From positions 2,761,462 to 2,825,461 of the forward strand of contig CP136069.1 of NCBI GenBank assembly GCA_032622095.1: 64,000 bases of DNA, given 5' to 3'. This document shows positions 5,556 through 64,000 of the stretch, in pieces. Both the position numbers and the translations under genes were made by a program. This DNA comes from Siphonodentalium dalli (Eukaryota; Mollusca; Scaphopoda; Gadilida; Siphonodentaliidae). Below the pieces are notes generated by a model. That model ran no database searches. It saw nothing but the letters and a program-made list of their open reading frames with translations, and was not told where the DNA came from. How positions within the stretch are numbered: position 1 is the stretch's first letter; every line of letters begins with the position of its first letter.

Positions 5556-5743
5556 TCTGGATTTGATGCATTATGGGTAATACTACAGTCGTAGCCAACA
5601 GCGTGAAATCGCAAGCCGATGGTGGCACTTTTAAGATATATCAATTTGCGGACTTGAAAGGAGGAGGTGAACTTGTCGAGTTGGTGAAGACAGCAAGGAA
5701 GACAAAGAATTATGAGGAAGTGGACCATATGATTGCAACGGAG
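5556..5743 (+). CDS. TRPV exon 1: short 5' UTR and residues 1-57
   Basis: A pyrimidine tract ending in TAG at 5553-5555 marks a likely acceptor, so a 5' UTR exon lies further upstream (possibly near 600-870). The ATG at 5573 is favoured because an in-frame TGA stands at 5564-5566. The peptide starts [10 protein letters not shown] and contains [20 protein letters not shown], an LKGGG signature also seen near the N-terminus of invertebrate TRPV proteins. The donor is GAG|GTGAGG, phase 0. Gly2 suggests myristoylation, but residue 6 is Val, so the consensus is not met. Confidence 0.85.
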
Positions 5744-26700: not shown

Positions 26701-29700
26701 ATAATATGTTAATTTTACTACAGTAAATTTCAGGATTTAGTCGGAAACATGGCTTGTTACCATTCATCGGAAAGCTCTCAGTGAAGCTTTCCAATGAATG
26801 GTAACAAGCCATATTTCCGACTAAATCCTGAAAAATTACCCATAATTCTGCTGTGGTGACGGAGTCGATTATTTAGGGCATTGCTATATGTCCACTAAGT
26901 TTACTGACTATGTTCTAATTGTACACTATCATGACAGTCGTAAGTCGGGATTTTTTTACCCTGTGCCAATGCATTCTCTTATATATGCGAGTCGACCATA
27001 GGTCGCCTCGCATATATAAGAGAATGCATTGGCCTAACAATTTCTTACAATTTTAATAATTTTTTCTTGTATTCTTTAACAATTTTATAATTTCACCCAT
27101 ACAGAGCCCCAGACAAACATGAGCAGACGACACTCTTCTATATGCTTCTATATATGTGTGGGGCTCCCTGCAGGGTAATGGATGTTTTTTATTTTATGTC
27201 CTAAAAATTGTAAGAAATTAAAAAAATAAATGATAAAAAATTGTTAGGCCAATGCATTCTCTTATATATGCGAGGCGACCTATGGTCGACTCGCATATAT
27301 AAGAGAATGCATTGGCACAGGGTAAGAATTTCATTACAATCCCATCAATCATCTAATAATTTCAGATCCCGAGTACCGTGAGGTATGTTGGGACATTGAA
27401 CAGCGTGGTGCTGTCGGTGAAACCATCTTTCACATGTGTATCCTGCATAATAATCCCGTCCACCACGATCTCGCCAAACGACTGCTGGCTCACTTTCCGA
27501 AGCTCATAAACGATATATATCTTGATGATGAATATTACGGTAAGTTGTACATACTGTGAGGCATGCTGGGTAATATACCTGGATATTACGGTAAGTCAGC
27601 CAAGTCTGAGTTAAGTGTGTGTGACATTTGCAAATTTACCCTCTGGGGACCTCATTCTGCTTAGGCATTTTTTTTAAAATGATAGTGTGAACATTTAGGA
27701 CCAGCTTGGTATTGTCGATTAAGGGATGGAATCATGGGAGGGGCGGTCAACACGGGTCAATTTTTTTTTTTCGACCGATCTCCAAACTCGGAACATAAAG
27801 TCTCTATGCGTCACCGATTACAGATATGCAAATCGTTATTGTAAACATATTTTATTCCAATCAAAATATAACATATATAAACATTTGACAGACATTTAAC
27901 AGGAGTATAGAATAGTACAAATATTCAACTGATTGGAAAGGGGATTAAACAACAAGCCCAAGGGCTTTTATTAATTTTGCTCCCCTAAATCGTTCCCCGA
28001 TCGCTTGGTAAATGACAGAGATACAGGCCTTCAAACATTTAAAGATTGGGCTAGAGTGACTTCTCGCCGTATCTCCTCTGAAAATAATGAATCTAGGTCA
28101 ATATTTTATTTATATTTTTATTGTACATGATGGCATGTATGAACATTTGGGATGGAGTCAAGAGAGGGGGCAACACTCCATGTGGGGGTCTCTATTGGGC
28201 ATGAAATTTTTTTTTGTCTTGTCATTGCAGGCCGGATAAGATGTGTTTCAAATTAACCCTTTACCCAACAAACCGGCCAAAACCGGCCAAATAAAGCTTC
28301 AACAGCCTAAAATATCTTCGGTCTGTCTCAATAGAACCATACAAATATGGATATCATTGGAACCGGCTCCTTGACCACATTGTGATAGTTACAGTTATGC
28401 CCTGTGCCAATGCATTCTCTTATATATGCGAGTCGACCATAGGTCGCCTCGCATATATAAGAGAATGCATTGGCCTAAAAAAAAAAATTCTTACATTCTT
28501 TAACAATTTTATAATTTTTAATGTGTTAAGCCAATGCATTCTCTTATATATGCGAGGTGACCTATGGTCGACTCGCATATATAAGAGAATGCATTGGCAC
28601 AGGGCCGTTCTGTTGGGTAAAGGGTTAAGCAAGTCTGAATTTAGTGTATCTGACATTTGCAGAATGAGGTCCTCAGAGGGTGAATTTAGCGATGCTATCC
28701 TGCACAGTGGGCTAGTATCACCAAATTCACCCTCTGGGGACCTCATTCTGCAAATGTCAGATACAATAAATTGAGACTTGAAATTAAGCCACAGTTCACC
28801 CCATATGCACTACATTCTGGCTACTGCAGTCTATATGGGTCATGAAAGGCACATGTTTCAAATTAACCCTTTACCCAACAAAACGGCCATAGGTCGCCTC
28901 GCATATACATGTATAAGACATAACACATATTAAAAATGATAAAATTGTCAAAGAATGTAGAAAAATATTATAAAAATTGTTAAAAAATGTAAGAAAAAAT
29001 TATAAAATTGTTAAACAATGCAAGAAAATATGGTAAAAAGTGTTAAAAAATGAATTTGTTTTAGGCCAATGCATTCTCTTATATATGCGAGGCGACCTAT
29101 AAGATAATGCATTGGCACAGGGCATAACTGTAACTATCACAATGTGGTCAATGAGCCGGTTCCAATGATATCCATATTTGTATGGTTCTATTGAGACAGA
29201 CCCAAGATAATTTAGGCTGTTGCAGCTTCATTTGGGCTATTTTTCTGGGTTAAGCCACATCATAAAATTAACAAACCTCAATGAAAAGACACCTTTGCCT
29301 GGGATACACTGTCTTGTGCACTTGTTTTGAATGTAACTGTAACATTTTTTTCAGGAGAGACTGCCTTGCATATAGCGATAGTCAATGAGGACCCGGCTAT
29401 GGTGAAATTTTTCTTGGATCATGGTGCCGATTTTAATTATCGATGCTGTGGGAACTTCTTCTGTCCATTCGATCAGAAGTCATCAAGAAAGGACAGCGGG
29501 GAACATGAATGGATGGACGTCGGTGAAAATACAAATTATGACGGGTAAGATAAATTTTCAGAACTGGCGACAATATCATTGAAATTTCATATATTTTACT
29601 GCAGACCTACACCTTACAACTTAACCCTTTCAGTACTAGTGCCAAGTCCGATTTTTGTATCAACCCCTCTGGATCTCTATATCTTACAACCGAACATGAA

Positions 29701-30876
29701 TGGATGGACGTTGGTCAATATACAAATTATGACGGGTAAGATATGTTCTGAAAAACAACAATTGTTTCGTGGTTGTCCAATTCTCATAATTTTCAAGGTT
29801 CCTGAAATCCACAAAATTAAAAATCCCACGATGAAGTTTCGTCAACAGATATTTTAAGCTGCGGTTTCCGTTTTGGAAAATAGTATGCCATGGGTATATT
29901 CAGGTGTAGGGAGGTAACTCTATTAACCATGGGTATATTCAAGTGTAAGGAGGTAACTCTATTAACAATACCAATTATTGTGAAGTAAGTTATTTGATCT
30001 GGAGGTGAATAGCCACTGTATAAAGTTTAATAATAATTTGATGACAATCTATCAATTCATGCTCACACATTTAACCACTTTCGTGCCACTTTCATTGTAA
30101 TAAGTAACCGTATTTATCACTATATGCGGGAAAAGAGTACCCGATTCTCACACAGAAATGCGCAAACTAAAGCGCAAGGGGCAGGGTTGGCGCTGGATGA
30201 AAATTTTCTCTTGCCAAAATGACTATTTTTTTGCCAAATTAAAAAAATATTTGCCAAATTTAATTGTGCGTATAATTGGAAAAATTATTGTGTTTTTATC
30301 TTTGTTAAAATCTAACAACAGACACAGGTAAAATGAGCTAATAGAAAAGCAAGTTAATATTTTTAATAAATATCAAAGTATCAATAAATATCTAAGCGAC
30401 ATCTGCCTGGAAACTATGTTTAATGTTGCTACACAGTCATCAAGGATACATATTATTTCGCCTTGTATTACTGCTGAAATCAACGAGCCATAAATTAATC
30501 CGTCGTCATTCACACTCGGCTGATTAACCTATTGTCCTATACTCGCTGGTAATATAATGCTGACATCATAAATAATTGCTTTATAATGTCGCCATTAATA
30601 TACATTGTTACAATGACTACATGCGTCCATAATCCAAACGTACAAAGGGAGGATTAACTGGCAAAACAAATAAATAATTACCTTTTGCGGTATCTACATT
30701 GAGATCATGTTACAAAGTACAAACTACAGCCTCAATGAAAAATTTACAGAACATCATTTTTTTTTCCCGACTCACATTTTAACCCTTTGAGTGCCAGGGG
30801 CCGATCTCATCGGCCCGAAACCTACAAAATAAGTATGTTAAAGAATATAAGAATAAATTATTAAAATTGTAAAAAA

Positions 30877-30907
<31 letters not shown>

Positions 30908-33900
30908 GGGTTAGGCCAATGCATTCTCTTATATATGCGAGGCGACCTATGGTCGACTCGCATATATAAGAGAATGCATTGGCACAGGGTATATGGGTTG
31001 ACACAAAAATCGACCTGGCACTCAAAGGGTTAACCACAGTCGATTAGCTGTTTGGTGAAAGTTTGATTATGACAGCAAGATTGGATTACCATTTTGTGAA
31101 AACTGAAGAAGATTACATATAACTGTCGACATAACACTCATGACTGCGCTACATGTAAATTGACAGATTTCTTGTGTTTTTGTTTCCCATTGTATTGTCT
31201 GTAATTCGGCTCACATAACGAATAACCCACATTCGATAATGTTTTATGACTAGATAGTTCGCATACCTTAATTAAAAGCTCACTTGCCAAAATATTTGCC
31301 AAATGAAAATATTTTTTGCCAAATGAACATTTGGCAAGCGGCAGCGCGAACCCTGGCGAGGAGCACCTATCATGACCTATTTTTATACATAATACACTAC
31401 TCTATCATGATCTAACTGCAAATAGGCTGCCTTTTTTCCGCATAAGGCCATACAAACTTAACAACAGTTTGTTGTAATAAGTAACCACATTTATCGCTAT
31501 ATCCAGGAAAGGGGAACCCGATTCTCACACAGAAATGCGCTCAAACTAAAGCATTTCTGTGTGAGAATCGGGTTTCCTTTTCCTGCATATACATATAGCG
31601 ATAAATACGGTTATTTATTACAACAAACTGTTGTTAAGTTTGTATGGCCTTATACGGAAAAAGGCAGCCTATTTGCAGTTAGATCATAATAGAGTATTAT
31701 GTATAAAAATAGGTCATGATAGGTGCTCCTCGCGCTTTAGTTTGTGTGCATATAGCGATAAATGCAGAACTTATAACAATGAAAAATTGTTAAGTTTATA
31801 TGGCCTTATAAGGAAAACGGCAGACTATTTGCAGTTAGATCATGACAGAGTTGTATATTTTTATCAGAAGAACTCAGTAGGCGCGACCCTAGTGATTCAC
31901 TGTGTGCGCATCCCTGTGTGAAATTCGGGTACCATTTGGCCGCATATAGTGATATTAGCACGAAAGTGGTTAAATTTAGATGGCCTTATATGCAATGGTT
32001 CAGTCTAATTGCAGTTAGATTGCGATAAGGTAGTCTATGTTGTTTCAATATAGAACATGAGGGGTGACCTGATTCCTTCCGATTGTGATCAACTATGTAT
32101 GAGACTTGGGTACCCTTTCCCCGCATATAGCGATAAATACGGTTACTTATTTCAATGAAAGCGGGACGATGATAATTTTGCAGGTATGTGAATTTTGGAG
32201 AATACGCCCTTTCATTATATTCTTATATATGTGTTATACCGCTGGATCTAAGATTTCGTAGAGTCCAACAACAAAGTAATTGGGTCGATAAAGTGTATTT
32301 TAAAAAGTATAAACTTCAACATAATTATCACAGCACAGCCAATATAATAAACCACATATAAAAGATAATCCTTAAAAATGAAATTTGCATTTCATTTAAC
32401 CATAGAATCTCAAACGGGTAACTCAATATTGTGCGTCTGTCTATTTCAAAAGCTAATTACTGAATGCCCCCCGGACTGCGCTAATGTTTCCGCCAGTAAC
32501 AGGTGAGTGCTAATCAGTGTGCAGGTGACACAATCATTCATGCTCGCTCTCACGCGCATACACACTGACACACATTTCAGTTAACCCATAACATGCTGAA
32601 ATAACAATGCAGGACGCGCGCAACTATCATGATCCATAAAAGAAGCAGTTTACTAAAACAGATAAAAACGGCACCTATAACATATGTAAGGTACTTTATA
32701 AGTGTTTTTTATTTTGCAGACACGTGTATTTTGGAGAATTCGCCCTGGCGTTTGCCGCATGTCTGGGACAAGAAGAATGTGTTAGATTACTGATAGCAAA
32801 AGGTGCAGACCCTAACTATCAGGACGCTAACGGCAACACCGTGATGCATATGCTAGTCATTCATGACAAAAGGGTAAATTACTAATATAAAATTAGATTA
32901 TCTATTTCTAAATTTACAGCCCTGTTAATTAGCAGAAAGTTTATAATTCGTTGCGAAATAAAAAACGAAAATTTGATCATCAAATTATAGATTTACGAGT
33001 AACTAAGACTTCTTCAAACCAATTACTAGCCCTCCCATCCTCCCCGCCGATGTTATACTTTGTTATGTACATAATATAACTTGGTGTTTTTCATCATCGT
33101 TTGGCGTATTGATGCAGAATGAAGATTGTTTATAACGGGGAATCTTGTACCAAGAGAGTTCATCAAATTTAGGAAGTGTTTTTCACATTGTTTTACTGAT
33201 TTCATAATTAACCCTTTACCCAACAAAACCCCTTATAGAGCCCCACATAGACTGGAGAAGACGACACTCTGCAGTGCATGCTTCCATCTGTGTGAGGCTC
33301 CCTGTGGGATAAATATTAAACTTTATATATCGCTTCGGTTATTAACCCTTTAGAGAGCCCCACATAGACTGGAGCAGACGACACTCTGCAGTGCATGCTT
33401 CCATCTGTGTGAGGCTCCCTGTGGGATATATATTAAACTCTATATATCGCTTCGGTTATTAACCCTTTAGAGAGCCCCACATAGACTGGAGCAGACGACA
33501 CTCTGCAATGCATGCTTCCATCTGTGTGAGGCTCCCTGTGGGATATATATTAAACTTTATATATCGCTTCGGTTATTAACCCTTTATAGAGCCCCACATA
33601 GACTGGAGCAGACGACACTCTGCAGTGCATGCTTCCATCTGTGTGAGGCTCCCTGTGGGATAAATCTCTTAATTAACCCTTTACCCAACAAAACGGCCAA
33701 AAACGGCCAAATAAAGCTTCAACAGCCTAAAATATCTTCGGTCTGTCTCAATAGAACCATACAAATATAGATATCATTGGAACCGGCTCCTTGACCACAT
33801 TGTGATAGTTACAGTTATGCTATGTGCCAATGCATTCTCTCATATATGCGAGTCGACCATAGGTCGCCTCGCATATATAAGAGAATGCATTGGCCTAAAA

Positions 33901-39900: not shown

Positions 39901-42900
39901 TCTGCTGTGGTTAAGGAGTCTATTATTTATTACATGATCCTACCCTTATTCCATTCAATAAACCCATTCTATAAATTGTGATATTAAACATTCGTTTAAT
40001 AACAGGAAATAGTGCCAGGTGACCTCTGACTTCCGGTTTGTTGTCCGTTTACATTTCATGCGCTACGTCTCAAAATACTAAGACTTCCAATATTTTTCCA
40101 ACAAACTATATACAGTTATCGCATTGTTTCGAGGTTGACACGAGGAATTGTCAACCCGAGGAAGTCAATATTCACCAAGGCCGTAGGCCAAGGTGAATAT
40201 TGACTTCCAAGGGCTGACAATTCCTCGTGTCAACCAAGAAACAATGCAATAACTGTTTTATTATATGAAATGCGCTTTGATTGGACAAGACGTTGTGACG
40301 TTGAACGTCACTGGGAAAATGCTATCTACTTTCAGGTCTGATAATAAGTTATGTTAACCCCTGAAGTACCTGACGTCACTCAGAACTGATATTAACCTAT
40401 TGTTTGATTAATGAGGTGAACATCATTATATATCTCGATGTTTTCGTTATGTTTTAACATAGGAATTGGGAAAGAAACTTATGATCATATAATAATAATG
40501 AATAAAGAGTTTGAAAAGTGATGTTATTAAATATGCGCCAAAGAGTCTTTATTTATCTGGGACTATTTCTTTATGCGGTCAAATAATGCATCGTTACGTG
40601 AAACGTCGTCACATGCCTTATAGAAGCCGATGTTAGTTTCGTGTCCAATTTATTGTATTAAGAATATTTTTCAAGGTTTTGGATCATGTAATAAATAGAA
40701 TCTAAAACTCGTCCCCAGTTTATAGCGGAATTTACAAAACTCGTCCAGTTAATTAGGTCTGGACCTCGCCTAAAACTTAATTTACTGGACTCGTTTTGGA
40801 AATTTCGCTATAAAATGGGGACTCGTTGTAGATCCTCTATTTAGGGCATTACTGTATATTAGACGACAACAGTTTTAAAGTCTTGTTTACAAACAGAAAA
40901 AAAGTAGATGCAGGAGGAAATAAAATAAATATATATAATCCTTTATTTCCTCCATGTAACGGAGAGCTTAGAATAAATTTATACAAATAACGATACGAAT
41001 GAACAATAACACAAAAAAGAATACATGTGAGTCATGTGAGTACATTAAGAATACATGTGAGTCATGTGAGTACATTAAGAATACATGTGAGTACATTAAG
41101 AATACATGTGAGTCATGTGAGTACATTAAGAATACATGTGAGTCATGTGAGTACATTAAGAATACATGTGAGTACATTAAGAATACATGTGAGTCGTGTG
41201 AGTACATTAAGAATACATGTGAGTCATGTGAGTACATTAAGAATACATGTGAGTCGTGTGAGTACATTAAGAATACATGTGAGTCGTGTGAGTACATTAA
41301 GAATACATGTGAGTCGTGTGAGTACATTAAGAATACATGTGAGTCGTGTGAGTACATTAAGAATACATGTGAGTCATGTGAGTACATTAAGAATACATGT
41401 GAGTCATGTGAGTACATTAAGAATACATGTGAGTCATGTGAGTACATTAAGAATACATGTGAGTCATGTGAGTACATTAAGAATACATGTGAGTCATGTG
41501 AGTACATTAAGAATACATGTGAGTCATGTGAGTACATTAAGAATACATGTGAGTCATGTGAGTACATTAAGAATACATGTGAGTCATGTGAGTACATTAA
41601 GAATACATGTGAGTCATGTGAGTACATTAAGAATACATGTGAGTCATGTGAGTACATTAAGAATACATGTGAGTCATGTGAGTACATTAAGAATACATGT
41701 GAGTCATGTGAGTACATTAAGAATACATGTGAGTCATGTGAGTACATTAAGAATACATGTGAGTCATGTGAGTACATTAAGAATACATGTGAGTCATGTG
41801 AGTACATGTGAGTACATTAAGAATACATGTGAGTACATTAAGAATACATGTGAGTACATTAAGAATACATGTGAGTCATGTGAGTACATTAAGAATACAT
41901 GTGAGTCATGTGAGTACATTAAGAATACATGTGAGTCATGTGAGTACATTAAGTCAATCACAGAAGGACATGAATGATAATTATATTTTTCATTTGATCA
42001 ATTATACAATAATATATAAAGAGAATTCAGGCACAAGTGTATAGACGATGTACCTGTTTAGCACGAAAGTATGGGGTTTCGGAATATTGGGATAAGATGC
42101 AATAAGATTCTTTATACAAGGGTAACAGAACTATATCAATAATACGCACCATAATAGTGAGTTGGCATGTAAGATGAATTGTAAGATGGAATTAGCTACT
42201 TCTGGAATAATTGTAATCTTATCCAGCGGTATATCGTTTGAATATGTTTCATTGTGTCCACAAGGATGGTTGACAATAGAGTATATGGTTATTAACCCAT
42301 AGAGAGCCCCATATAGTCTGGAGCAGACGACACTCCATAGTACATGCTCCCATCTGTGTGAGGCTCCCTGTGGGTTAAACATTATACTTTTATCAGTGAG
42401 GTTTGAGATGGATGTCTTACATTACTAAACAAGGATGGTCACGTATAGAAGATAGTTTGTGGTTGACAATAGAGTATATGGTTATGCTGGTGTGGGTCCA
42501 GTCAGAAAATAGCAAATCGCGTGACATCTTACTTTGTATGGATATATCTTATTTCAGTTTTCCGACACTGTCTTGTAGGTTAATTTCGTATCAGTTTTTG
42601 TTCCAAGTTACAGATAAAGACACCTGTATCTTTGCGGACAAATATACCATAGTGCTTTACATTTATTGAAAGAGTTAGAATGTCTACATGTTTGAGTTTT
42701 TTTCTTTTCAGATTTAAGCCTACTATTAAATAATTTTTTTTGTAACTGTGAAAAAAGTTGTAGGTAATGTTTGTAAAAGTACTAAACCAGACATTAAAAT
42801 AGGTGTCACCTTATATTTTTAAAATGTAATTGATGAATTTTACTACTAGTAATAGATGACCGACCGGTCGGGTGTGGTTTTTTGACTTTAATTGATGAAT

Positions 42901-45900
42901 TTTACTAACAGATGGCCGAGCAACCTCCAATCGAGGACCCTGAGGACGATTATGATGATGATGAAAAAGGAATGTTTTACTATGTAAGACAGTGATATGT
43001 TGTATCAAATTAACCCATAGAGAGCCCCATATAGACTGGAGCAGACAACACTCCATAGTACATGCTCCCATCTGTGTGAGGCTCCCTGTGGGTTAAACAT
43101 TATACTTTATCAGTGAGGTTTGAGATGGATGTCTTACATTACTAAACAAGCCTGCAAATAGCGTGTCTGTCATTTGCAGAATGGGGTCGTCATAGGGTGA
43201 ATTTAGTGATGCTATCCCGCACTAGCATCACCAAATTTACCCTCTGGAGACCTCATTCTGCGATGGGTGAACATCACCAACTTCAACTGGGGAACTTCAA
43301 TCTGATCCTAGGTCTATCACAGCAGTTGAGGGCCTAAGCAGAATGAGGTTCCTAGAGGGTGAATTTAGTGATGCTAGCCCGCTGTGCGGGATAGCGTCAC
43401 TAAATTCACCCTCTGGGACCTTATTCTGCAAATGACAGACACGCTATTTGCAGGCTTGGTAAGACAGTGATGTGCTTAAGTAATTGTAGGACCTTCCTAA
43501 TCCCACAGGGAGCCTCAAAGAGATGGAAGATTACAATGAGGTGTGTCTTCAGCTCTTGTCGGGCTCTCTATGGGTTTGCATGACCTTCGACCTTCCGAAC
43601 CCCCATTGTGGCTGAAGTGGTCATGTTTGCTTGGTGTGTAAGCAATCAATGTATTACAAAAATTTTGGAGAAAAATCTGGGAACCCAATAAATACATGAT
43701 TTGGAGATCCTGGGTACCATAATAAATGATTTGGAGATCCTGGGTACCTAATCATTGTTATAGAAATCCTGGGTACAATTATAATCAGTGATACCATGGA
43801 AACTTGATCACTTCAGCTGCTTTGTGTCATCAACATATGACCTTTTGACCTTGTGGACTCAAGTGTCCTGCTAATTTGCTAAGATGCTGGTGGGTCCTGC
43901 TGATTTGAGCAAATCGATGTTGTTAATAAAAAAGTACCATTTTCGTATTTAAATAACATATCCGCAGTGTTTGGTTGACCTGAACAAATCGATGAGAAGA
44001 TGCAATGTGCATAAAACATGTATATTTAGGAGATAAACGTGCATAAAACATGTATATTTAGGAGATAAACGTGCATAAAACATGTATATTTAGGAGATAA
44101 ACGTGCCCTGTTTCATTGTACAATCTGGGATTCGAACATGAGAACAGTTTGTGAATGAGCCAGCAAGTTTCACAAACTGTTTTTATGCTCGAATCCCAGA
44201 ATGTACAACGAAACAGGGTACGTTTATCTCCATTGTAATTCAATCTAGCAAGGACTTTGCAAAAAAACGTTAATGACTTTCATTTTGCCGTTGTCACCGT
44301 GCGTTGTGCATTGCATTACTCGGAACACGTTTCGCTACTCCGTTCTGCGCCGATGAAATTTTACCGTGCTACATTCAGATTTGAGCAGCCAATGTCGGTG
44401 AATCGAAAACAAAAGTTAGCCGCTCTCGGTCAATCAGAATGCTTGGTTTTTGTGACAAATATGCAATTGAATTACAATGTGAAATATTTTAACCCTTTAC
44501 CCAACAAAACGGCCAAAAACGCCCAAATAATGATTCAACAGCCTAAAATATCTTCGGTCTGTCTCAATAACACCATACAAATATGGATATCATTGGAACC
44601 GGTTCATTGACCACATTGTGATGGTTACAGGTATGCCCTGTGCCAATGCATTCTCTTATATTTGCGAGTCGACCATAGGTCGCCTCGCATATATAAGAGA
44701 ATGCATTGGCCTAAAAAACCTTTTTTTTAACACTTTTTACCATTTTTTCTTACATTCTTTAACAATTTTATAATATTTTCTTACATTTTTTAACAATTTT
44801 TATAATATTTTTCTACATTCTTTGACAATTTTATCATTTTTAATATGTGTTAAGCCAATGCATTCTCTTATATATGCGAGGCGACCTATGGTCGACTCGC
44901 ATATATAAGAGAATGCATTGGCACAGGGCCGTTCTGTTGGGTAAAGGGTTAATAATATCGCTGTTGGTTGTTGCCATACCGACCATACTTGAGATGATTA
45001 TCCCTGTTGTTTTGAAAACCAATCCTGAGATTAGTGTGCTTGCCATTTGCAGAATGAGGTCCCCAGAGGGTGAATTTAGTGATGCTATCCTGCATAGCGG
45101 GCTAGCATCACTAAATTCACCCTCTGGTGACCTCATTCTGCATGGCCTCATCTGCTATGAGAGACATAGACTCAGATTGAAATTCCCGAATGGTAAATAT
45201 TGTGATGTACACCCATTGGGAACCTCGATTATGCAATGTGTCATCTGTGGATATACATGTAGGGATACTAAAATAAACAAGACACAGTGTCGCCATTATT
45301 AAATTTGTTTTAAAGTGATGTGAAATACTCCAATGGGTGATTAAAATAGAAATAATCTTGCTGAATATTAACCCAAATTTACAACACACCGTCAGTCTTA
45401 TATACATGTAGTTATTAAATGCAATAAGTCTCGATGGCGAAATCATTTGCGTTAGTTTATTGACGATTGTTGAGTCCCAAATTGAGATGTAAATATTTAC
45501 AATTGAGCGTAGTTCAGACGGTCTTTTATACCGAGTTGTACAGTCGATTTCTTATAGATTTTGGGTGATGTTAGTAGAATGCTACATTCCCCCAGTTGGC
45601 ATAACGAGTACTAATTTATCAGTTTCACCCGAACATGTCCATAATATGTCTTTAATATATATGAATGTTTCATACACACACTGGCTTATTGTTCAAATCG
45701 CTTGTTTTAGCCAAACACTGTTACTATTACTTATAACAACATCACTTTGCCCTACCAGCATCATATCAAATTAGTAGGATCACTTAACCAGTGGTGACTA
45801 TGCGTGTTCCCTGTTTCCATAGCTACCTGTATGTTTAACCCACAGGGAGCCTCATGCAGATGGAAGCATGTACTAGAGAGTGTCGTCTGCTGCAGTCTAT

Positions 45901-48900
45901 GTGGGGCTCTCTATGGGATATGCGTGTTCCCTGTTTACATAGATACCTGTGTATCCTGTTGTTACCTCATGTCTGCAGTTGTTTTTTTTTGTAATCAGAC
46001 CTGAAAATATTGTGCTGGATGTTTGCAGAATGAGGTCCACAGAGGGTGAATTTAGTGATGCTACCCCGCAGTGTGAGGTCCCCAGAGAGTGAATTTAGTG
46101 ATGCTACCCCGCAGTGTGAGGTCCCCAGAGGGTGAATTTAGTGATGCTACCCCGCAGTGTGAGGTCCCCAGAGGATGAATTTAGTGATGCTACCCGCAGT
46201 GTGAGGTCCCCAGAGGGTGAATTTAGTGATGCTACCCTGCAGTGTGAGGTCCACAGAGGGTGAATTTAGTGATGCTACCCCGCAGTGTGAGGTCCACAGA
46301 GGGTGAATTTAGTGATGCTACCCCGCAGTGTGAGGTCCCCAGAGGGTAATTTAGTGATGCTACCCCGCAGTGTGAGGTCCCCAGAGGGTGAATTTAGTGA
46401 TGCTACCCCGCAGTGTGAGGTCCCCAGAGGGTGAATTTAGTGATGCTACCCCGCAGTGTGAGGTCCCCAGAGGGTGAATTTAGTGATGCTACCCCGCAGT
46501 GTGAGGTCCACAGAGGGTGAATTTAGTGATGCTACCCCGCAGTGTGAGGTCCACAGAGGGTGAATTTAGTGATGCTACCCCGCAGTGTGAGCTACAGTAA
46601 TGCCGTAAATAATCGAAAGCTCTCACTTTCCGATGAAGCCATATTTCCAACTAAATCCTGAAAAGTTACTCATAATTCTGCTCTGGTTAAGGAGTTGATT
46701 ATTTAGGGCATCACCAAATTCATCCTCTGGGGACCTCATTCTGCATGGCCTCATCTTCTGTGGGAGACGTAGATACAGATTTAAGTTCCCAGATGGTGAT
46801 GTGCACCCATTGGGCACCTCGATTATGCATTGTGTCGTCTGCTAATTTTGGGATATGGAGGACCTAAACTAAAAAAGAAAAAGAAACTTTCTAAAGAAGT
46901 TTTTAACCCTTTCAGTGCCAAGTCCGATTTTTGTATCAACCCATATTTCCTTGATCATTTTTCAAATTTATTGATTATAATAATGTGATACATTGATGAA
47001 AATAGGTCTTATCACATTATTATAATCAATATGACAAGAAAATCCAAACCGATGTACCCATATTGGACTTCTCCAAAGCATTCGATACAGTGCCCCACAA
47101 CAAATTACTGCAGAAGCTCGAAAATTACGGGATCCGAAACAACATACTAGATTGGCTGACATCTTTCCTGACAAATAGGCGTATGCGGGTAGCAGTTGAA
47201 GGAACCTGCTCTTCGTACCTACCAGTGGACTCTGGAGTTCCACAAGGTACTCTACTGGGACCCCTCCTGTTCCTCATACATGCAAACGACATACCAAACT
47301 GCGTAAATGCCCAAATAAGACTCTTCGCAGATGACTGTCTCATACAAAGAAACATCAACAAACAAGAGGACCACAAGATCCTCCAGAATGACCTGAAAGC
47401 TCTTGAAGATTGGGCAAATACATGGGAAATGTGATTTAACACACAAAAATGTTTCATCATGAGCATTCGGAACCGATCATCGCACATGTACCAACTAAAC
47501 AATGACATCCTTCAATCGGTCCACGACAACCAATATCTCGGATTAACCATCACCGACGATTTATCATGGTCATCACATGTGAGAAAAATAACCAAAAGAG
47601 CAAACTGCACTCTTGGACTTCTCTGCAGGAATATCAGACACGCACCGGAGAAATGTAAAAAAACAGCATAACATAGCCCTAGTCAGACAGACGCTTGAAT
47701 ATGGAGCAGCAGTTTGGGATCCACACGAAAAGAAGGATATAACATCAATTGAGAAAGTGCAAAGACGTGGCGCCAGATTTATCAAGAACAACTACAGGCG
47801 AATGGGGGTATCTGTAACCAACATGCTTGATGAACTGGAACTAACATCACTCCAAGAAAGACGCCAGGAAATAAGACTGACCCAGTTCCACAAGATAGTG
47901 AAGGGGATGGTGCCAGCTCTTGATGTGCATGACTTAATTCCTAATCCCAAAAAAGGAAAGCAGAAAGATTACTGCAACAAATTTCTCGGACTACATCTCC
48001 ACCAACATAGTCGAAAAGGAGGTTTGTAATAATAAATGGCCGTTCCAACTCAGGCGTACTAGCTGCGACCAGTACAAACACTCCTTTTTCGTAACAACGA
48101 CAATTGACTGGAACCAACTTGAGGATTCTGTTGTGTGCGCTAGCGATTCGGAGGAATTCGTAGGCCAGGGGCACTCCGAAAAAGTAGGATCGCTACTCCA
48201 GGAGAGTTCCACCAGTCGCAGCCTCCTGGAAAAACATCACACACCTCATCTCAGTGTGTCTAAAGCCAGCATTGGCTACTGCACAGGAAAATTACAGATA
48301 CAGAATAAATTTGAAAAATGATCAAGGAAATATGGGTTGATACAAAAATCGGACTTGGCACTGAAAGGGTTAAAGATACTAAAAAACTTGTTAATTTTAT
48401 AAAAAAGAAACTTTCCAGAGAAGATGAAGCCTAAGCACTAAATTCACCTTCTGGGGACCTCATTCTGTAAATGACTGACACACTAAATTCACCCTCTGGG
48501 AACCTCATTCTGTAAATGTCCGACACCATACTTTCAGAACTGTTTGTAATTGATAGTTTTCTTGTGGTTTGTATCTGGCTCTTTTTAAGTATTGAGGCGT
48601 TTCCTTTCTCTGGAAGTGGAAAGATTTAAGTTGGACCTACAGTAACACTCTAAATAATCGACTCCTCAACCACAGCAGAATTATGGGTAATTTTTCACGA
48701 TATTGTCGGAAATATGGCTTGTTGCCATTCATCGGAAAGCTCTCACTGAGAGGTTTCTGATGAATGGCAACAAGTCATATTTCCGACTACATCTTGAAAA
48801 ATTACCCATAATTCTGCTGTGGTTAAGGAGTCGATTAGTTAGGGCGTTACTGTACATGTAGTTCACCGCTGGAAGGAATCTGTGCTAACTGAAGACCACA

Positions 48901-50083
48901 TCCATGATGCAATTTATTACATGTATATAACCCTAAAAATGTAAAAAAAAATAAGATGACTTTGAACATATTTTAAAAGATAATTTTAGGTGGAGCATTC
49001 TCAGCAAGTAATTTTACCCTGTGCCAATGCATTCTCTTATATATGCGAGTCGACCATAGGTCGCCTCGCATATATAAGAGAATGCATTGGCCTAACAATT
49101 TTTTATCATTTTTTTTTATAAATTGTTCTTACAATTTTTAGGACATAAAATAAAAAACATCCATACACATATATAGAAGCATGTCGTCTGCTCATGTTTA
49201 TCTGGGGCTCTGTATGGGTGACATTATAAAATTGGAAATTAATAACTGTCATAAAACGATATATGATCTGAACGTGTGAAAGACTTGAATGACTCTGATG
49301 TAATTTGATTCATTTTCGGAATAACGTTCTGGCAATCTTTTGTATAGTTGCACAAAACATGAAACCAAATGAATCTACATTATGACATGCAAGTCGCAAA
49401 ATCTGGTATATATGATTGTATGTATGTGCAGGCTGCCGTGAATCTTACATTGGCGAGACCGACAACACGTTACGTGAGCACATGACATTACACCGTCAAC
49501 ACATCAGGCAGTCTGAATACAGAGAGATACAATTAAGCCAACATCTTGATGTTTGTGGGAACGGAAAGCTGAATTCACTGAAATGACGTCATACCATACA
49601 TGCCGGAAATGACGTCATACCATACATGCCGGAAATGACGTCATACCATACATGCCGGGAATGATGTCATACCATACATGCCGGAAATGACGTCATACCA
49701 TACATGCCTGAAATGACGTCATACCATACATGCCTGAAATGGTGTCATACCATACATGCCTGAAATGACGTCATACCATACATGCCAGAAACGGAAATGA
49801 CGTCGTACCATACATGTCGGAAATGACGTCATACCATACATGCCGGAAATGACGTCACACCATACATGCCGGAAATGACGTCATACCATACATGTCGGAA
49901 ATGACGTCATACCATACATGCCGGAAACGGAAATGACGTCACAATACAATACACTAACTTTGATTATCTTTAAATCTGAAGAGCTCTTTTAAGAGTGAAA
50001 TTAATGCATAATATTAAAAAAGATAATCATAAAAATGAGTCATATTCAACATGTTATTCATATATTGAACTGTTAATCATTTG

Positions 50084-50120
<37 letters not shown>

Positions 50121-53100: not shown

Positions 53101-56100
53101 AACAAGTTACCTTATTTGTTCGAAATACTTAGTGGTTTTCTATAACATTCTGATCAAAATTGCCAGTCGGAGGTGCGTGGAATACACCAGTCCATACATC
53201 TTGGAAATCCTTCGACTGACAACTTTGGTCAGAATGTTAGAGCAAACAAATGTGAATTTGGACATAAATGAGGTATCAGTTTGTTTGACAGTTAGTATAG
53301 CATCTGCTCGTAGCTGTCAAAATACTATGTTATATGTCATATCTTAGTTTATTACCTTTTTTCCTTGCTTTTAGTCGCATTTTAGATCGCCTCGGCCATT
53401 TTGAATGCGTGATACTCATCAACTCGAAACCACGTGATTCCCCATCGTGAATTTGCCATGAAATCACGACATGGTAAAGTAATATATATAGAGTTCAGGG
53501 GTACTAAAACTAAGAATTCAATTCAACAAAGATAGGTTTTTGTAATGCTATATTTTATTGTGATTTAGTTCAAGGAACCAATCACTGTTTACTACAATGT
53601 AATACTACAATGTAAAATCACAGATTTATAAAAAAAACATGAATTCAACAGTATCAATTTAACCCTTTACCAAAACGGTCAAAAACGCCCAAATAAAGCT
53701 TCTTCGGTCTGTCTCAATAACAACATACAAATATGGATATCATTGGAACCGGTTCATTGACCACATTGTGATGGTTACAGTTATGCCCTGTGCCAATGCA
53801 TTCTCGTATATATGCGAGTCGACCATAGGTCGCCTCGCATATATAAGAGAATACATTGGCCTAAAAAAAAATTCTTACATTTTTTATAATATTTTTCTAC
53901 ATTCTTTGACAATTTTATCATTTTTAATATGTGTTAAGCCAATGCATTCTCTTATATATGCGAGGCGACCTATGATCGACTCGCATATATAAGAGAATGC
54001 ATTGGCACAGGGCCGTTCTGTGATTATATTCATTATTGTGTTCTTGTATCTCATAATATTAATGAAATTAACTTCTCTTAATGCACCCCATACAACAGCG
54101 AGAGAGGGATTATTCAATGAAGGTTTGTTTATATACCCATAAAATACTGAATGGATTAAAGAATTAACAGTCAATAGTATTGAGAAGACAAGTCATTCAC
54201 TGATCTCAAAAAGAGCAGCGAAACTCAATGGATAGCTTTCTGATGTAACAATTTGGAGGGTCTATATCGGATCATGGACAATATACTCTCCCACAATGTG
54301 TTACTATGATGATCAATATCAGCTATGTTTAAACTAGCTTTTGCTAGAGTAATGCCCCAAATAATCGACTCCTTAACCACAGCAGAATTATGGGTAACTT
54401 TTCAGGATTTAGTCGGAAATATGGCTTGTTGCCATTCATCGGAAAGCTCTCAGTTTACCCATAATTATGTTGTGGTTAAGGGGTCGATTATTTAGGGCAT
54501 TACTGTAGATGCCGTGTTGTTATGAATTATAGTGTCACACCAAAGTACACATATGAAATTTCTATTCCAAACATGGGAAAAGTGTCATTAATTTCTTTAT
54601 CACCGCAAGAGTTTTTGCTTTCTAAATTGTTGCACAGCATTATTATGCTAGTCTGCTATGTGGGATAGAGTCACTAAATTCACCCTCTGAGGAACTCATT
54701 CTGCAAATAACAGGCACACTAAATTCAGACTTGATCTACTTTATAGGCGTGAAGACATTAGCGAATAATTCATATGTCAGACAGGGGAGGGGGGGGGGTC
54801 GGTCAAAAGTAAAAACATAGCACGCGAAAATGGCCTTAGTTATCCTTGGACTACACAAAAAAAACAAAAAGAATGAATTTTTTTTTTTTGTTGCAAATTT
54901 GGGAATATTTAGGTGCCACGCCCACTAAAATGAAAACAGAAATAATGAGTTTCAAAGCAAATAAAACCAATATCTTAGACCTATTATGTTCTTAAGTGGC
55001 CACTGAAGACATAGCAAAACTCAAACTTCTTGTATCAGTGAAAAAAATGACAAAAAGTGGATTTTAAAAAAATGGTCTGGCTGCGGGGGACCCACCCCCC
55101 CCTAGGCCCTATATGTTGCAAATTTTTTCCTCCCCTCCCCTCTGTGTCAGATGATTAATTCAATCGGATTGAATTATTCAAGTGATTTGTGGAAAACATG
55201 TCACAGATTTCAACTATAAAATAATTTCTAACAAATTATTTCTAAAAACTACTTCCCAATAAATCGCCCCATTTGTAGAGATTAATTTAATTTGTCATAA
55301 TTCCATGGAAAAAGTTAAGGATATTTAACTGAAAAATAATTTTCTCTATTTTAGGAAATGTTTGATTTGCTGCATACTTTGGGAGCAAAACTGAATATCA
55401 CCAATCGACAAGGATTAACTCCCCTTACGCTGGCCTCAAAGCTCGCGAGAAAGGAGGTAAGCAAGCCTTGAAATAAGGTGTCTGTCATTTGCAGAATGAG
55501 GTCCCCAGAGGGTGAATTTAGTGATGCTACCCCGCATAGCGGGCTAGCATCACCAAATTCACCCTCTGGGAACCTCATTCTGCTGAGGTGTAAGCAGAAT
55601 GAGGTCCCCAGAGGGTGAATTTGGTGATGCTATCCCGCATAGCGGGGTAGCATCACCAAATTCACCCTCTGGGGACCTCATTCTGCAAATGATAGACACC
55701 CTATTTCAAGGCTTGGAGGTAAGTGCTGTAACTGCAAGACATACATGTACCGCTAACTCCACTTACACTGGCATTGAAGCTGAGAAAGGAAGAAAATATA
55801 ACACTATCTATATCCCTGAAACCAGGTCTGGCACTTTCCCCAATTGATGACGTATATATGCCAATCGTCCTTGCGATTGAAAGAAATACCCACTAATTTA
55901 TAAATCTGAAATTACATAAACAGTGTATGACTTAATGTTTAGCTGACAGGTAATATATGACAAAGCCGATAAAAATGCTGCGATAAATTCAAAGTGGTCA
56001 TGTCGGCATGTTGTTCAGATAGGTAGATCATGCCATGAATCTCTACTCTGGCTAAAGTAAAATTAAGTGGGCCTTTAACAAACGCCTTCTCTGGTAAATA

Positions 56101-59100
56101 CTCTGTGCCAATGCATTCTCTTATATATGCGAGTCGACCATAGGTTGCCTCGCATATATAAGAGAATGCATTGGCCTAACAAAATTTTATTATTTGTTCT
56201 TGCCTTCTATAACAATTTAAAAAAAAAATTCTTATATTCTTTAACAATTTTATAATTTCACCCATACAGAGCCCCAGTCAAACATGAGCAGACGACACTC
56301 AGTACACATGCTTCTATATATGTGTGGGGCTCCCTGCAGGGGGTTCGAAAATTCAAAGTGGACATGTCAGCATGTTGTTCAGATAAGTAGATCATGCCAT
56401 GAACCTCTACTCTGGCTAAATACCTGTAGAGATTGTATTCTACTGGTACAAAACCTGGGAACTTTTTGAAGTTTTGAAAGGGAACCTTATAAAGTCGAAA
56501 AATTAACACAGGGAATATATTTCTTAGTTCCTTAACCCTTTACCCAACAAACCGGCCAAAACCGGCCAAATAAAGCTTCAACAGCCTAAAACATCTTCGG
56601 TCTGTCTCAATAGAACCATACAAATATGGATATCATTGGAACCGGCTCCTTGACCACATTGTGATAGTTACAGTTATGCCCTGTGCCAATGCATTCTCTT
56701 ATATATGCGAGTCGACCATAGGTCGCCTCGCATATATAAGAGAATGCATTGGCCTAAAAAAAATCTTTTTTTAACACTTTTTACCATTTTTTCTTACATT
56801 CTTTAACAATTTTATAATTTTTAATGTGTTAAGCCAATGCATTCTCTTATATATGCGAGGCGACCTATGGTCGACTCGCATATATAAGAGAATGCATTGG
56901 CACAGGGCCGTTCTGTTGGGTAAAGGGTTAATACTGATCAGGTGTATCTCTGATTGTTTCAGATGCATGACCACATTTTGGAGATCGAGAGAAGCATTTA
57001 CTGGATTTACGGGAATGTGACGTGTGCAGGCTATCCACTGGACTCCATTGATACAATATCGCCGTCAGGGGAGATAAACCAGAACTCCGCCCTCTATCTC
57101 GTCGTATATGGGGTATGTCTAGTTAGAATGTGAGATGTGCTGTCTATGTTGCCATATATGGGCAATGATAAACCAGAGCTCCGCCCACATATCATTGTAT
57201 ATGGGGTATGATAAACCAGAGCTCCGCCCCTATCATTGTATATGGGGTATGATAAACCAGAGCTCCGCCCCTATCATTGTATATGGGGAATGATAAACCA
57301 GAGCTCCCCCTATCATTATATAAGGGGAATGATAAACCAGAGCTCTGCCCCCCTATCATTGTATATGGGGTATGATAAACCAGAGCTCCGCCCCCCTATC
57401 ATTGTATATGGGCAATGATAAACCAGAGCTCTGCCCCCTATCATTGTATATGGGGAATGATAAACCAGAGCTCTGCCCCCCTATCATTGTATATGGGGTA
57501 TGATAAACCAGAGCTCCGCCCCTATCATTGTATATGGGGTATGATAAACCAGAGCTCCGCCCCCCTATCATTGTATATGGGGAATGATAAACCAGAGCTC
57601 TGCCCCCTATCATTGTATATGGGGTATGATAAACCAGAGCTCCGCCCCTATCATTGTATATGGGGTATGATAAACCAGAGCTCCGCCCCCCTATCATTGT
57701 ATATGGGGTATGATAAACCAGAGCTCCACCCCCTATCATTGTATATGGGGAATGATAAACCAGAGCTCCGCCCCCTATCATTGTATATGGGGTATGATAA
57801 ACCAGAGCTCCGCCCCTATCATTGTATATGGGGTATGATAAACCAGAGCTCCGCCCCTATGATTGTATATTGGGTATGATAAACCAGAGCTCCGCCCCCT
57901 ATCATTATATAAGGGGTATGATAAACCAGAGTTCCGCCCCTATCATTGTATATGGGGAATGATAAACCAGAGCTCCGCCCCCCTATCATTGTATAAGGGG
58001 TATGATAAACCAGAGCTCCGCCCCCTATCATTGTATATGGGGTATGATAAACCAGAGCTCCGCCCCTATCATTGTATATGGGGTATGATAAACCAGATCT
58101 CCGCCCCCCCTATCATTGTATATGGGGTATGATAAACCAGAGCTCCGCCCCTATCATTATATAAGGGGTATGATAAACCAGAGCTCTGCCCCCTATCATT
58201 GTATATGGGTTATGATACACCAGAGCTCCGCCCGTATCATTATATAAGGGGTATGATAAACCAGAGCTCCGCCCCTATCATTGTATATGGGGTATGATAA
58301 ACCAGAGCTCCGCCCCCTATCATTGTATATGGGGTATGATAAACCAGAGCTCTGCCCCCCTATCATTGTATATGGGTTATGATACACCAGAGCTCCGCCC
58401 GTATCATTATATAAGGGGTATGATAAACCAGAGCTCCGCCCCTATCATTGTATATGGGGTATGATAAACCAGATCTCCGCCCCTATCATTGTATATGGGT
58501 TATGATACACCAGAGCTCCGTCCGTATCATTATATAAGGGGTATGATAAACCAGAGCTCCGCCCCTATCATTGTATATGGGGTATGATAAACCAGAGCTC
58601 CGCCCCTATCATTATATAAGGGGTATGATAAACCAGAGCTCCGCCCCTATCATTGTATATGGGGTATGATAAACCAGAGCTCTGCCCCCCTATCATTGTA
58701 TATGGGGTATGATAAACCAGAGCTCCGCCCCCCCTATCATTGTATATGGGGTATGATAAACCAGAGCTCCGCCCCTATCATTGTATATGGGGTATGATAA
58801 ACCAGAGCTCCGCCCCCTATCATTGTATATGGGGTATGATAAACTAGAGCTCCGCCCCTATCATTGTATATGGGGTATGATAAACCAGAGCTCTGCCCCC
58901 TATCATTGTATATGGGTTATGATACACCAGAGCTCCGCATCATTATATAAGGGGTATGATAAACCAGAGCTCCGCCCCTATCATTGTATATGGGGTATGA
59001 TAAACCAGAGCTCCGCCCCTATCATTGTATATGGGGTATGATAAACCAGATCTCCGCCCCCCCTATCATTGTATATGGGGTATGATAAACCAGAGCTCCG

Positions 59101-62100
59101 CCCCTATCATTATATAAGGGGTATGATAAACCAGAGCTCTGCCCCCCTATCATTGTATATGGGTTATGATACACCAGAGCTCCGCCCGTATCATTATATA
59201 AGGGGTATGATAAACCAGAGCTCCGCCCCTATCATTATATAAGGGGTATGATAAACCAGAGCTCCGCCCCCCTATCATTGTATATGGGGAATGATAAACC
59301 AGATCTCCGCCCCCCTATCATTGTATATGGGGTATGATAAACCAGAGCTCCGCCCCCCTATCATTGTATATGGGGTATGATAAACCAGAGCTCCGCCCCC
59401 TATCATTGTATATGGGTTATGATAAACCAGAGCTCTGCCCCCCTATCATTGTATAAGGGGTATGATAAACCAGAGCTCGCCCCTATCATTGTATATGGGG
59501 TATGATAAACCAGAGCTCCGCCCCCCTATCATTGTATGTGGGGTATGATAAACCAGAGCTCCGCCCCCCTATCATTGTATATGGGGTATGATAAACCAGA
59601 TCTCCGCCCCCCCCCCCTATCATTGTATATGGGGTATACAGGGCCGTTCTGTTGGGTAAAGGGTTAAACAGTTATCTTGGTTTTGATTTTGTATACAACT
59701 TGGATTTCAGGAGGAGCAGGAGCATATTGAGATGATGGACGGGTTAGTGGTCAATCTACTCATAGAGAAATGGAAAACCTTCATCAGATTCAGGTATGTA
59801 TCTCCATAGAAACCCCCGCTCAGACCGAAGCAGACTACAGGTATGTATCTCCATAGAAACCCCCGCTCAGACCGAAGCAGACTACAGGTATGTATCTCCA
59901 TAGAAACCCCCGCTCAGACCGAAGCAGACTACAGGTATGTATCTCCATAGAAACCCCCGCTCAGACTGAAGCAGACTACAGGTATGTATCTCCATAGAAA
60001 CCCCCGCTCAGACCGAAGCAGACTACAGGTATGTATCTCCATAGAAACCCCCGCTCAGACCGAAGCAGACTACAGGTATGTATCTCCATAGAAACCCCCG
60101 CTCAGACCGAAGCAGACTACAGGTATGTATCTCCATAGAAACCCCCGCTCAGACCGAAGCAGACTACAGGTATGTATCTCCATAGAAACCCCCGCTCAGA
60201 CCGAAGCAGACTACAGGTATGTATCTCCATAGAAACCCCCGCTCAGACCGAAGCAGACTACAGGTATGTATCTCCATAGAAACCCTCGCTCAGACCGAAG
60301 CAGACTACAGGTATGTATCTCCATAGAAACCCCCACTCAGACCGAAGCAGACTACAGGTATGTATCTCCATAGAAACCCCCGCTCAGACCGAAGCAGACT
60401 ACAGACGATGAAGAGTCAGTAGCAGGCCTTAACCCTTTACCCAACAAACCGGCCAAAACCGGCCAAAACCGGCCAAATAAAGCTTCAACAGCCTAAAATA
60501 TCTTCGGTCTGTCTCAATAGAACCATACAAATATGGATATCATTGGAACCGGCTCCTTGACCACATTGTGATAGTTACAGTTATACCCTGTGCCAATGCA
60601 TTCTCTTATATATGCGAGTCGACCATAGGTCGCCTCGCATATATAAGAGAATGCATTGGCCTAAAAAAAATCTTTTTTTAACACTTTTTACCATTTTTTC
60701 TTACATTCTTTAAAAAAATTTAATGTGTTAAGCCAATGCATTCTCTTATATATGCGAGGCGACCTATGGTCGACTCGCATATATAAGAGAATGCATTGGC
60801 ACAGGGCCCTTCTGTTGGGTAAAGGGTTAACAAAATGTGGTTCCCAGAGTGTATATTTTGTGACGCGAGCCCATTGTGCGTGATAGCGTCATTTAATTCC
60901 CCCTCTGGAGATCTCATTCTGCAGACAATGGAGAGGTATGTAGCCCCATCAGGGTCCCCAGTCAAATCGCATGCAGACCAGGGATGGGGTAATTGTAATT
61001 TGTAATTGTAATTGACTGTAATTAATTACATTTTTTCAAGTAATTGCATGTAATTGAGTTTATTCTCAATTACATGTAATTGCAATTGTAATTGGTTAGG
61101 ATGTAATTGTAATTGTAATTTGGGTCTAATTTCAATTACTTCAAAATCACAGGTACTTATTTCTTCTCAAAGTTCTCTTTCATGATTCATCCAATGGTTT
61201 CTTCAAATGTTTTTTTCCAAATTTCAAAGTGTAAGACTGGTGACTGGCTATCACTATGTTGTCACAACACTGAGTTTTCACCCGCTGTGTCTCAATGGTT
61301 AATTCTGTGGACACCTCTTTGGTTGCTTAAGCATTGGTTTACCGTTGAGGTAGAAGGCTTGTTTTGATAAATACAATGAGAAACCAACTTCAAATAATTG
61401 ACAATAGATCACTATAATAGATCACTCTTATGATCATGTTTCATTATCTCCACCTGATTGCAGACAACACACGTCACCTTCAAGTTAACCATTTCAGGAC
61501 GGAAGATACTGTGCCAGCGCATCCTCTTTCTATGCGAGTCTCCCATAGGGAGCCTCAAATATACAAGAGAATGCACTGGCTTACAAGGTAAATATTCTTA
61601 GGCCAATGTATTCTCTTATACGTATGTCAGGCTCCCAATGGGAGACATGCATATATAAGAGAATGCATTGACACAGGGTTTTCGCAAAATTTCAGGAAGC
61701 TCCAGTCACGGAAGGGTTAAATATGTATGCCTGTTGGGAGCCCCAGAACACAGTGTACTGCACCTGCCAGAATGAGGTCCCCAGAGGTTGAATTTAGTTA
61801 ACGTCACCAAATTCATCCTCTGTGACCTCATTCTGCGTGGCATATGTTATGACCTAGACTCGGATTTAAGTTTCACGATGGTGATGAGCACCCATTGGGC
61901 ACCTCGATTATGCTCTGTGTCGTCTGCCAATTTGGGGATATGGAGGACCTAAACTAACAAGACAATTACAGACTCTTAAATAAATTGCTAGATTAACATT
62001 TTCACGCAAATTGGGCGGGAGGCTGTGGGAGGGCGAATTTTATGATATTGAAGCAGTATCCTATCTTATATAATACAAGGTGATTTATATAGTCCAATTT

Positions 62101-63280: not shown

Positions 63281-64000
63281 GTGAGTAAATATGTTAACCC
63301 CATAGAGAGCCCCACATACATGTAGACTGCAGCAGACGACAACTCCACAGTGCAAGCTTCCATCTATGTGAGGCTCCCTGTGGGTTAAACATTAAACTCA
63401 GATACCGATTTTGTGAGTAAATATGTTAACCCCATAGAGAGCCCCTCATACATGTAGACTGCAGCAGACGACAACGCCACAGTGCAAGCTTCCATCTGTG
63501 TGAGCCGCGATCCCTGTGGGTTAAACATTAAACTCAGATACAGATTTTGTGAGTAAATATGTTAACCCCATAGAGAGCCCCTCATACATGTATGACCGGA
63601 AAGATAAAGAGCACCGTATACAAACGAATATATACGGACTAAGTCCTATAAGAGTGTGCATTAGATTTGATCCCATATAAAATTCATGATATTGTGATCT
63701 ATTATGACCAAATGAGGAACCAAATCGCAATATTTCACCCGAAATGGAATCCGTTTATATAAATACATGAATCCGGAATCTAGCTTAACTTGTGTCTTGA
63801 ATCCGGCGTACGGGTCCAAAATGGGTCGAATCCGGCATACGAAAAGGGGGGGAAGGGGCCCTCAAATATGTTAACCCCATAGAGAGCCCCACATACATGT
63901 AGACTGCAGCAGACGACAACTCCACAGTGCAAGCTTCCATCTGTGTGAGGCTCCCTGTGGGTTAAACATTAAACTCAGATACCGTTTTTGTGAGTAAATA
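63262..64000. repeat. Exon 10 end, donor and short TTAA hairpin repeated in tandem
   Basis: ACTCAGATACCGATTTTGTGAG followed by TAAATATG and a TTAA hairpin (CCCCATAGAGAGCCCC ... CTCCCTGTGGG) recurs, with donors at 63281, 63413, 63549 and 63990. The hairpins lie at 63294-63388, 63426-63524 and 63871-63965. A third hairpin starts at 63562 but is broken at about 63592 by 280 bp of unrelated DNA. Confidence 0.92.

Follow-up and report, generated by a model that had tools for sequence, protein, structure and literature searches.

Exon-intron borders are repeatedly copied into adjacent introns in a predicted Nanchung-type TRPV channel gene and in other genes of Siphonodentalium dalli

The window, i.e. 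the whole stretch of 64,000 nucleotides analysed here, corresponds to C9:2761462-2825461 of a 2.23-Gb genome in 9 contigs. Our gene model places ten exons of one gene in it, at 5574-5743 (exon 1), 15879-16062 (exon 2), 27366-27539 (exon 3), 29355-29544 (exon 4), 32720-32873 (exon 5), 42912-42983 (exon 6), 55355-55456 (exon 7), 56963-57112 (exon 8), 59711-59793 (exon 9), and 63085-63280 (exon 10). These exons are on the + strand, as are the copies and arrays of the window described below. The translation of exons 2 to 10 aligns with the Nanchung protein in PDB 9nvo (E 4e-134). The alignment covers exons 2-5 and their joins, resumes at exon 7, and extends across the following joins into exon 10. 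This alignment provides protein support for exons 2-5 and 7-9 and for the first part of exon 10; exon 1 lay outside the query, and exon 6 and the end of exon 10 are unaligned. Exons encoding the region from S1 to the pore lie 3' of the window and also give a Nanchung-type match (E 4.5e-42). The true borders thus give a Nanchung protein, apart from the unmatched exon 6, and a Nanchung-type TRPV is the best match, with ankyrin and transmembrane sequences in co-linear order. Judged by its predicted protein, the gene is a Nanchung-type TRPV channel gene. Nothing in the Nanchung protein of PDB 9nvo aligns with exon 6 (72 nt, encoding 24 residues of acidic character), and the borders of this exon are therefore uncertain. 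It may have been gained, may be a cassette exon, or may not be a true exon.

The window also carries repetitive sequences of other kinds. By eye, a foldback element with the motif GCCAATGCATTCTCTTATATATGCGAG occurs in both orientations and in many copies, at 28400-28600, 44640-44930, 56100-56910, and elsewhere, and it is probably a non-autonomous transposon. A reverse transcriptase-like reading-frame remnant was seen by eye within an intron at 47030-48320.

Each exon border was assessed by aligning an 80-nt window locally against 2.5 kb on each side, with 200 dinucleotide shuffles per window, and the top chance score per window was 14-20. A parallel test used 50-nt windows and 50 dinucleotide shuffles each over the same 2.5 kb. 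Copies that span the border and score above 200/200 shuffles were found at six of the 19 borders of the window. The tail and donor of exon 4 (border 29544/29545) are copied at 29696..29752 (score 43), and the acceptor and head of exon 5 (32719/32720) are copied upstream of the true exon at 32175..32210 (score 26). The donor of exon 8 (57112/57113; score 31) is followed at 57155..59611 by an array of 58.8 copies, mostly units of 41-43 bp, derived from the exon tail and the donor. At exon 9 (59793/59794; score 44), the true donor is itself the first unit of a 13.1-copy array of 47-bp units at 59791..60404, each opening with CAG followed by GTATGT. Units of 132 bp containing the tail and donor of exon 10 (63280/63281; score 58) lie at 63264..63592, and similar units recur up to the end of the window and beyond. 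The exon 7 donor (55456/55457; score 22) has a decayed copy of the exon tail at 55755..55795 that reaches 4 nt past the border and has lost the GT by eye. With 50-nt windows, this donor scored 11 against a shuffled maximum of 12, which is not significant, so the evidence depends on the longer exon match.

Three further borders are weaker cases. The exon 2 acceptor (score 30, above 200/200 shuffles) is abutted by a 38-bp array of ~199 copies at 8300..15871, and the match is confined to the intron side and ends 4 nt before the border; the functional acceptor region resembles a final, diverged unit of this array, though on its intron side alone. Upstream of exon 6, the end of the intron (border 42911/42912) is copied at 42816..42845 (score 22, above 200/200 shuffles), again on the intron side only and ending 4 nt before the border, and a decayed piece of the exon 6 head follows this copy by eye. 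The exon 3 donor (27539/27540) has a marginal, 17-nt spanning copy 51 bp downstream at 27580..27596, in which GTAAGT is kept. Its score of 15 was reached by 15/200 shuffles, while with 50-nt windows it scored 15 against a maximum of 14 and beat 50/50 shuffles. The exon 6 donor scored 15, a level reached by 33/200 shuffles, and the match does not span the border, so an echo at this donor was rejected. The remaining nine borders of the window (the donors of exons 1, 2, and 5, and the acceptors of exons 3, 4, 7, 8, 9, and 10) scored 10-14, within chance. The initial annotation had named ten copied borders in this gene, about half of the total. Six of the ten are clear and spanning, two are intron-side only, one is marginal, and the exon 6 donor fails; "about half" holds as 9/19 only when the intron-side and marginal cases are counted. 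Its central observation, that real exon borders were repeatedly duplicated into the adjacent intron, is borne out, with scores of 22-58 at the six spanning borders.

One explanation of such matches is chance similarity, or dispersed transposon copies that carry splice-like motifs. In its favor, ~40% of the 94-kb stretch examined resembles either other sequence in the sample or a site in the stretch itself that is more than 5 kb away. The six spanning borders nevertheless score above all shuffles, and their copies contain protein-coding exon sequence. In addition, the stretches of the exon 8 and exon 9 arrays matched this locus alone among the best candidates in the 2.23-Gb genome (very common words were skipped), so these arrays most likely arose locally. 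An origin by chance or transposition is refuted for the six spanning copies, and we regard it as extremely improbable as a general explanation. It is possible for the exon 3 donor match and likely for the exon 6 donor match.

Selection could also maintain the copied borders, either as reserve splice sites or to provide alternative isoforms. Many copies retain GT or AG by eye. Among 59 counted donor sites of the exon 8 array, the true border included, 44 read GGGGTATG, 7 read GGGGAATG, 6 read GGGTTATG, and 2 read GGGCAATG, and in the exon 9 array all 13 of 13 sites, again with the true border, read CAGGTATGT. There is also a precedent: the human gene 6-16/IFI6 is described as having an exon-end minisatellite with multiple donors, two downstream units of which are used as donors (PMC4526556). 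The exon-end position and the donor-type units are shared with the arrays found here, whereas use of the copied donors here is predicted to retain a stop codon in 4/4 cases checked (exons 3, 4, 9, and 10). Moreover, across 58 parsed units of the exon 8 array, conservation is 0.88 for the donor G and 0.86 for the donor T, less than the mean of 0.955 over the whole array, and the exon 7 copy lacks GT. The lower conservation of GT and the retained stop codons both fit poorly with selected reserve sites. The suggestion in the initial annotation that reserve donors are selected thus found no support, and we consider this explanation very unlikely.

The 30 kb 3' of the window contain exons 11-13 of the gene and three pore exons, and 12 borders were tested there. 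The exon 13 acceptor has a clear spanning copy (score 23), and the donor of pore exon c has a spanning 62-bp tandem copy (score 48), both above 200/200 shuffles. A shorter spanning copy of the pore exon a acceptor lies 1.2 kb off (score 19, reached by 1/200 shuffles). The pore exon b acceptor scored 18 (0/200 shuffles), with an intron-side match only, towards the preceding array. The other eight borders were within chance (200 shuffles each). An array of ~94-bp units at L003:1138-6810 (C9:2846599-2852271) occupies much of the interval that separates pore exons a and b, with its end immediately upstream of exon b. The three pore exon versions are located at L002:8549-8694 (C9:2844010-2844155), L003:6830-6975 (C9:2852291-2852436), and L003:8362-8507 (C9:2853823-2853968). 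They are arranged in tandem, each is exactly 146 nt (2 mod 3), and they are frame-locked. Pairs of them share 30-35 of 48 residues, with pN of 0.17-0.25 and pS of 0.63-0.81. A transcript with two of them joined would be out of frame, which makes it likely that the exons are mutually exclusive and provide three pore variants of the Nanchung-type channel.

Other genes contain border copies as well. From sixty loci surrounding exons of the myosin-head and TCP1 families, 17/60 in near-identical, overlapping, or paralogous groups were dropped, which left 43 loci, and 12/86 borders with weak splice signals were dropped, leaving 74 borders (including one donor from L035, which is a single long open frame). 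Six of these borders have spanning copies with a score of at least 22. They comprise the myosin donors of L010 and L012, which are paralogues and represent one common event, and the TCP1-family donors of L054, L058, and L061 and acceptor of L055. In the alignments of sampled loci, the exon tail and the donor are repeated, and L058 contains an array. Of 20 helicase loci, 4 provided usable exons; the other 16, with open frames of 220-905 residues and in part repeated scores, did not look like exons and were left out. The donor of the helicase exon L081 has a copy with a score of 35. All seven of these borders score above 200/200 shuffles. As a side observation, three DEAD-helicase-like frames at G000:C7:181919637-181924946 form a tandem array with an exact spacing of 2,421 bp and identical scores. 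Taken together, the 45 exon loci used from myosin, TCP1, and helicase genes contain six independent cases, so border copying is not confined to the Nanchung-type gene, and copied borders make up ~8% of those tested, a first rough rate.

The initial annotation had proposed that a process might start duplications at exon edges, and that junctions be compared with positions inside introns. For this comparison, 80 exon loci were fetched (60 plus 20 helicase) and 45 were used. Of the 60, 17 were dropped as duplicates (with L012 out and L062 restored), and L034 and L035 were dropped as long single open frames. Ten of 90 borders with weak signals were removed and the 12 downstream borders of the Nanchung-type gene were added, giving 92 in total. 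The L081 donor scored 1.2 against a signal cut-off of 1.5 and was admitted by hand for its GTAAGT after its copy had been noticed. The dispersed-repeat filter wrongly removed the donor of pore exon c, and removed the acceptor of pore exon a as well, because the pore exons resemble each other.

When borders were compared with equal windows of intron at score 22, there was no clear excess: 6/19 borders against 1165/2757 intron windows in the Nanchung-type gene, 6/74 against 728/6033 in the sampled loci, and 7/92 against 553/7742 in the final set, with dispersed repeats masked and the original ten exons excluded. Counting each array or pair as one event, in contrast, gave 7 border hits against 2.56 expected, a 2.7-fold excess (P 0.016). 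This became 6 events (P 0.046) without the hand-admitted L081 donor and 8 (P 0.005) with the pore exon c donor restored. At cut-offs of 18, 20, 25, and 30, P was 0.051, 0.02, 0.071, and 0.28, with only 3 events against 1.84 expected at scores of at least 30. At score 22, a version of the count that treated L010 and L012 as separate events gave 6 border hits in the sample, where 1.48 were expected (P 0.004), and 5 in the Nanchung-type gene, where 0.91 were expected (P 0.002). We note that an exon-derived copy may stay detectable up to ~2 times longer, because the exon half of the pair is conserved. When this two-fold advantage, which is our own estimate, is allowed for, P rises to 0.41, 0.26, and 0.15 for 6, 7, and 8 events, and significance is gone.

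These results bear on the idea that tandem duplication has its mutational hot spots at exon borders, and at donors above all, for example because of breaks linked to transcription, R-loops, or slippage where short matches like CAG/AGGT occur. Besides the event count, it is favored by the distribution of copied borders, with donors at 11/54 and acceptors at 4/57 (Fisher P 0.052; the Nanchung-type gene included and the exon 6 acceptor counted), and by the exon 9 breakpoint, which by eye falls on CAG at the donor itself. The equal-window tests, the small excess at high scores, and the effect of the detection advantage speak against it. That duplications are drawn to exon edges is therefore possible and not established, and we think borders are rather unlikely to be hot spots.

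The initial annotation knew of no described system of this kind, but the mirages of amphioxus match it. In the published reports, the 5' or 3' intron/exon borders of Adh3 and of the globins BflGb6 and BflGb9 are tandemly duplicated in a minisatellite-like manner, RT-PCR suggested regular splicing (PMC3087553), AG/GT is kept in many but not all units (PMC3087553, PMC3902484), and a PGBD5 mirage is added and troponin C is cited (PMC3902484). Mirages are also characterized by length instability between alleles or cells, and active array turnover is reported for Adh3. As in amphioxus, the copies found here are in tandem and span exon-intron borders. They affect either type of border (the donors of exons 4 and 7-10, and the acceptors of exon 5 and L055), retain AG/GT in many but not all units (44/59 sites at exon 8), and occur in several genes of one genome. 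Here, in contrast, six clear cases are found in ten exons of one gene, one array reaches ~59 units, the rate was measured in other genes, and the genome is 2.23 Gb in 9 large contigs. The amphioxus genome is unlike this. Protein-family searches of the genome gave no GFP match and 0, 0, and 6 matches for the haemocyanin beta-sandwich, insect cuticle, and tyrosinase families; control searches for the last three gave matches in none of 14 genomes, and the counts carry no weight for taxonomy. Among the titles and abstract openings searched, with subscription journals mostly outside the coverage, mirages were found in no genome other than amphioxus. A related process is intron gain via tandem duplication of proto-splice sites (PMC2891723, PMC4974935). 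As described, it also involves tandem duplication with splice sites in genes, but there coding sequence becomes an intron, whereas here the copies enter an existing intron and none is gained.

We consider it likely that the copies are mirages, namely short tandem duplications that happen by chance to span borders and are tolerated in a genome with frequent local duplication in its introns. A duplication source, with a unit of ~40-135 bp in the cases read, would happen to include an exon border. The mutational step may be slippage, template switching, or end joining. By eye, breakpoints show short matches (CAG at exon 9, TCA in L010, and TTT at pore exon c) or a match of 0-1 bp (exon 10 and L054), and short or absent matches are compatible with any of these. 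Some border duplications would later grow into minisatellite arrays, while others would decay or be split by insertions. They would survive because one complete exon with a working border always remains, so that production of the original mRNA stays possible; the copies sit in the intron, and splicing may ignore them or their products may be degraded. With local duplication so frequent in its introns, this genome would accumulate several copies in a long gene that has many borders. Under neutral tolerance, copying should be about equally frequent for borders and for intron windows, as observed (7/92 vs 553/7742). A whole-exon version of the same process could also have yielded the three downstream pore exons. 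A bolder proposal is that exon edges, and donors above all, are preferred starts of tandem duplication in animal genes of at least two distant lineages, with one process leading from decayed single copies through arrays of ~60 units to whole functional exons, and supplying both intron turnover and new mutually exclusive exons, of which the three pore exons would be an example. We hold this to be doubtful.

The border copies are real. They were generated locally, occur in several genes, and belong to a kind already described. What is new is their occurrence in a genome unlike that of amphioxus, their density in one gene, the rate of ~8%, and the possible link to tandem pore exons. Because ~8% of the borders tested carry mirages in this second genome, a large one, their possible role as a source of intron sliding, intron gain, and exon duplication can be tested at scale. 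For splicing research, they offer natural genes with dozens of near-identical competing donors, and for gene-prediction pipelines they are a warning that true-looking splice sites may be repeated.
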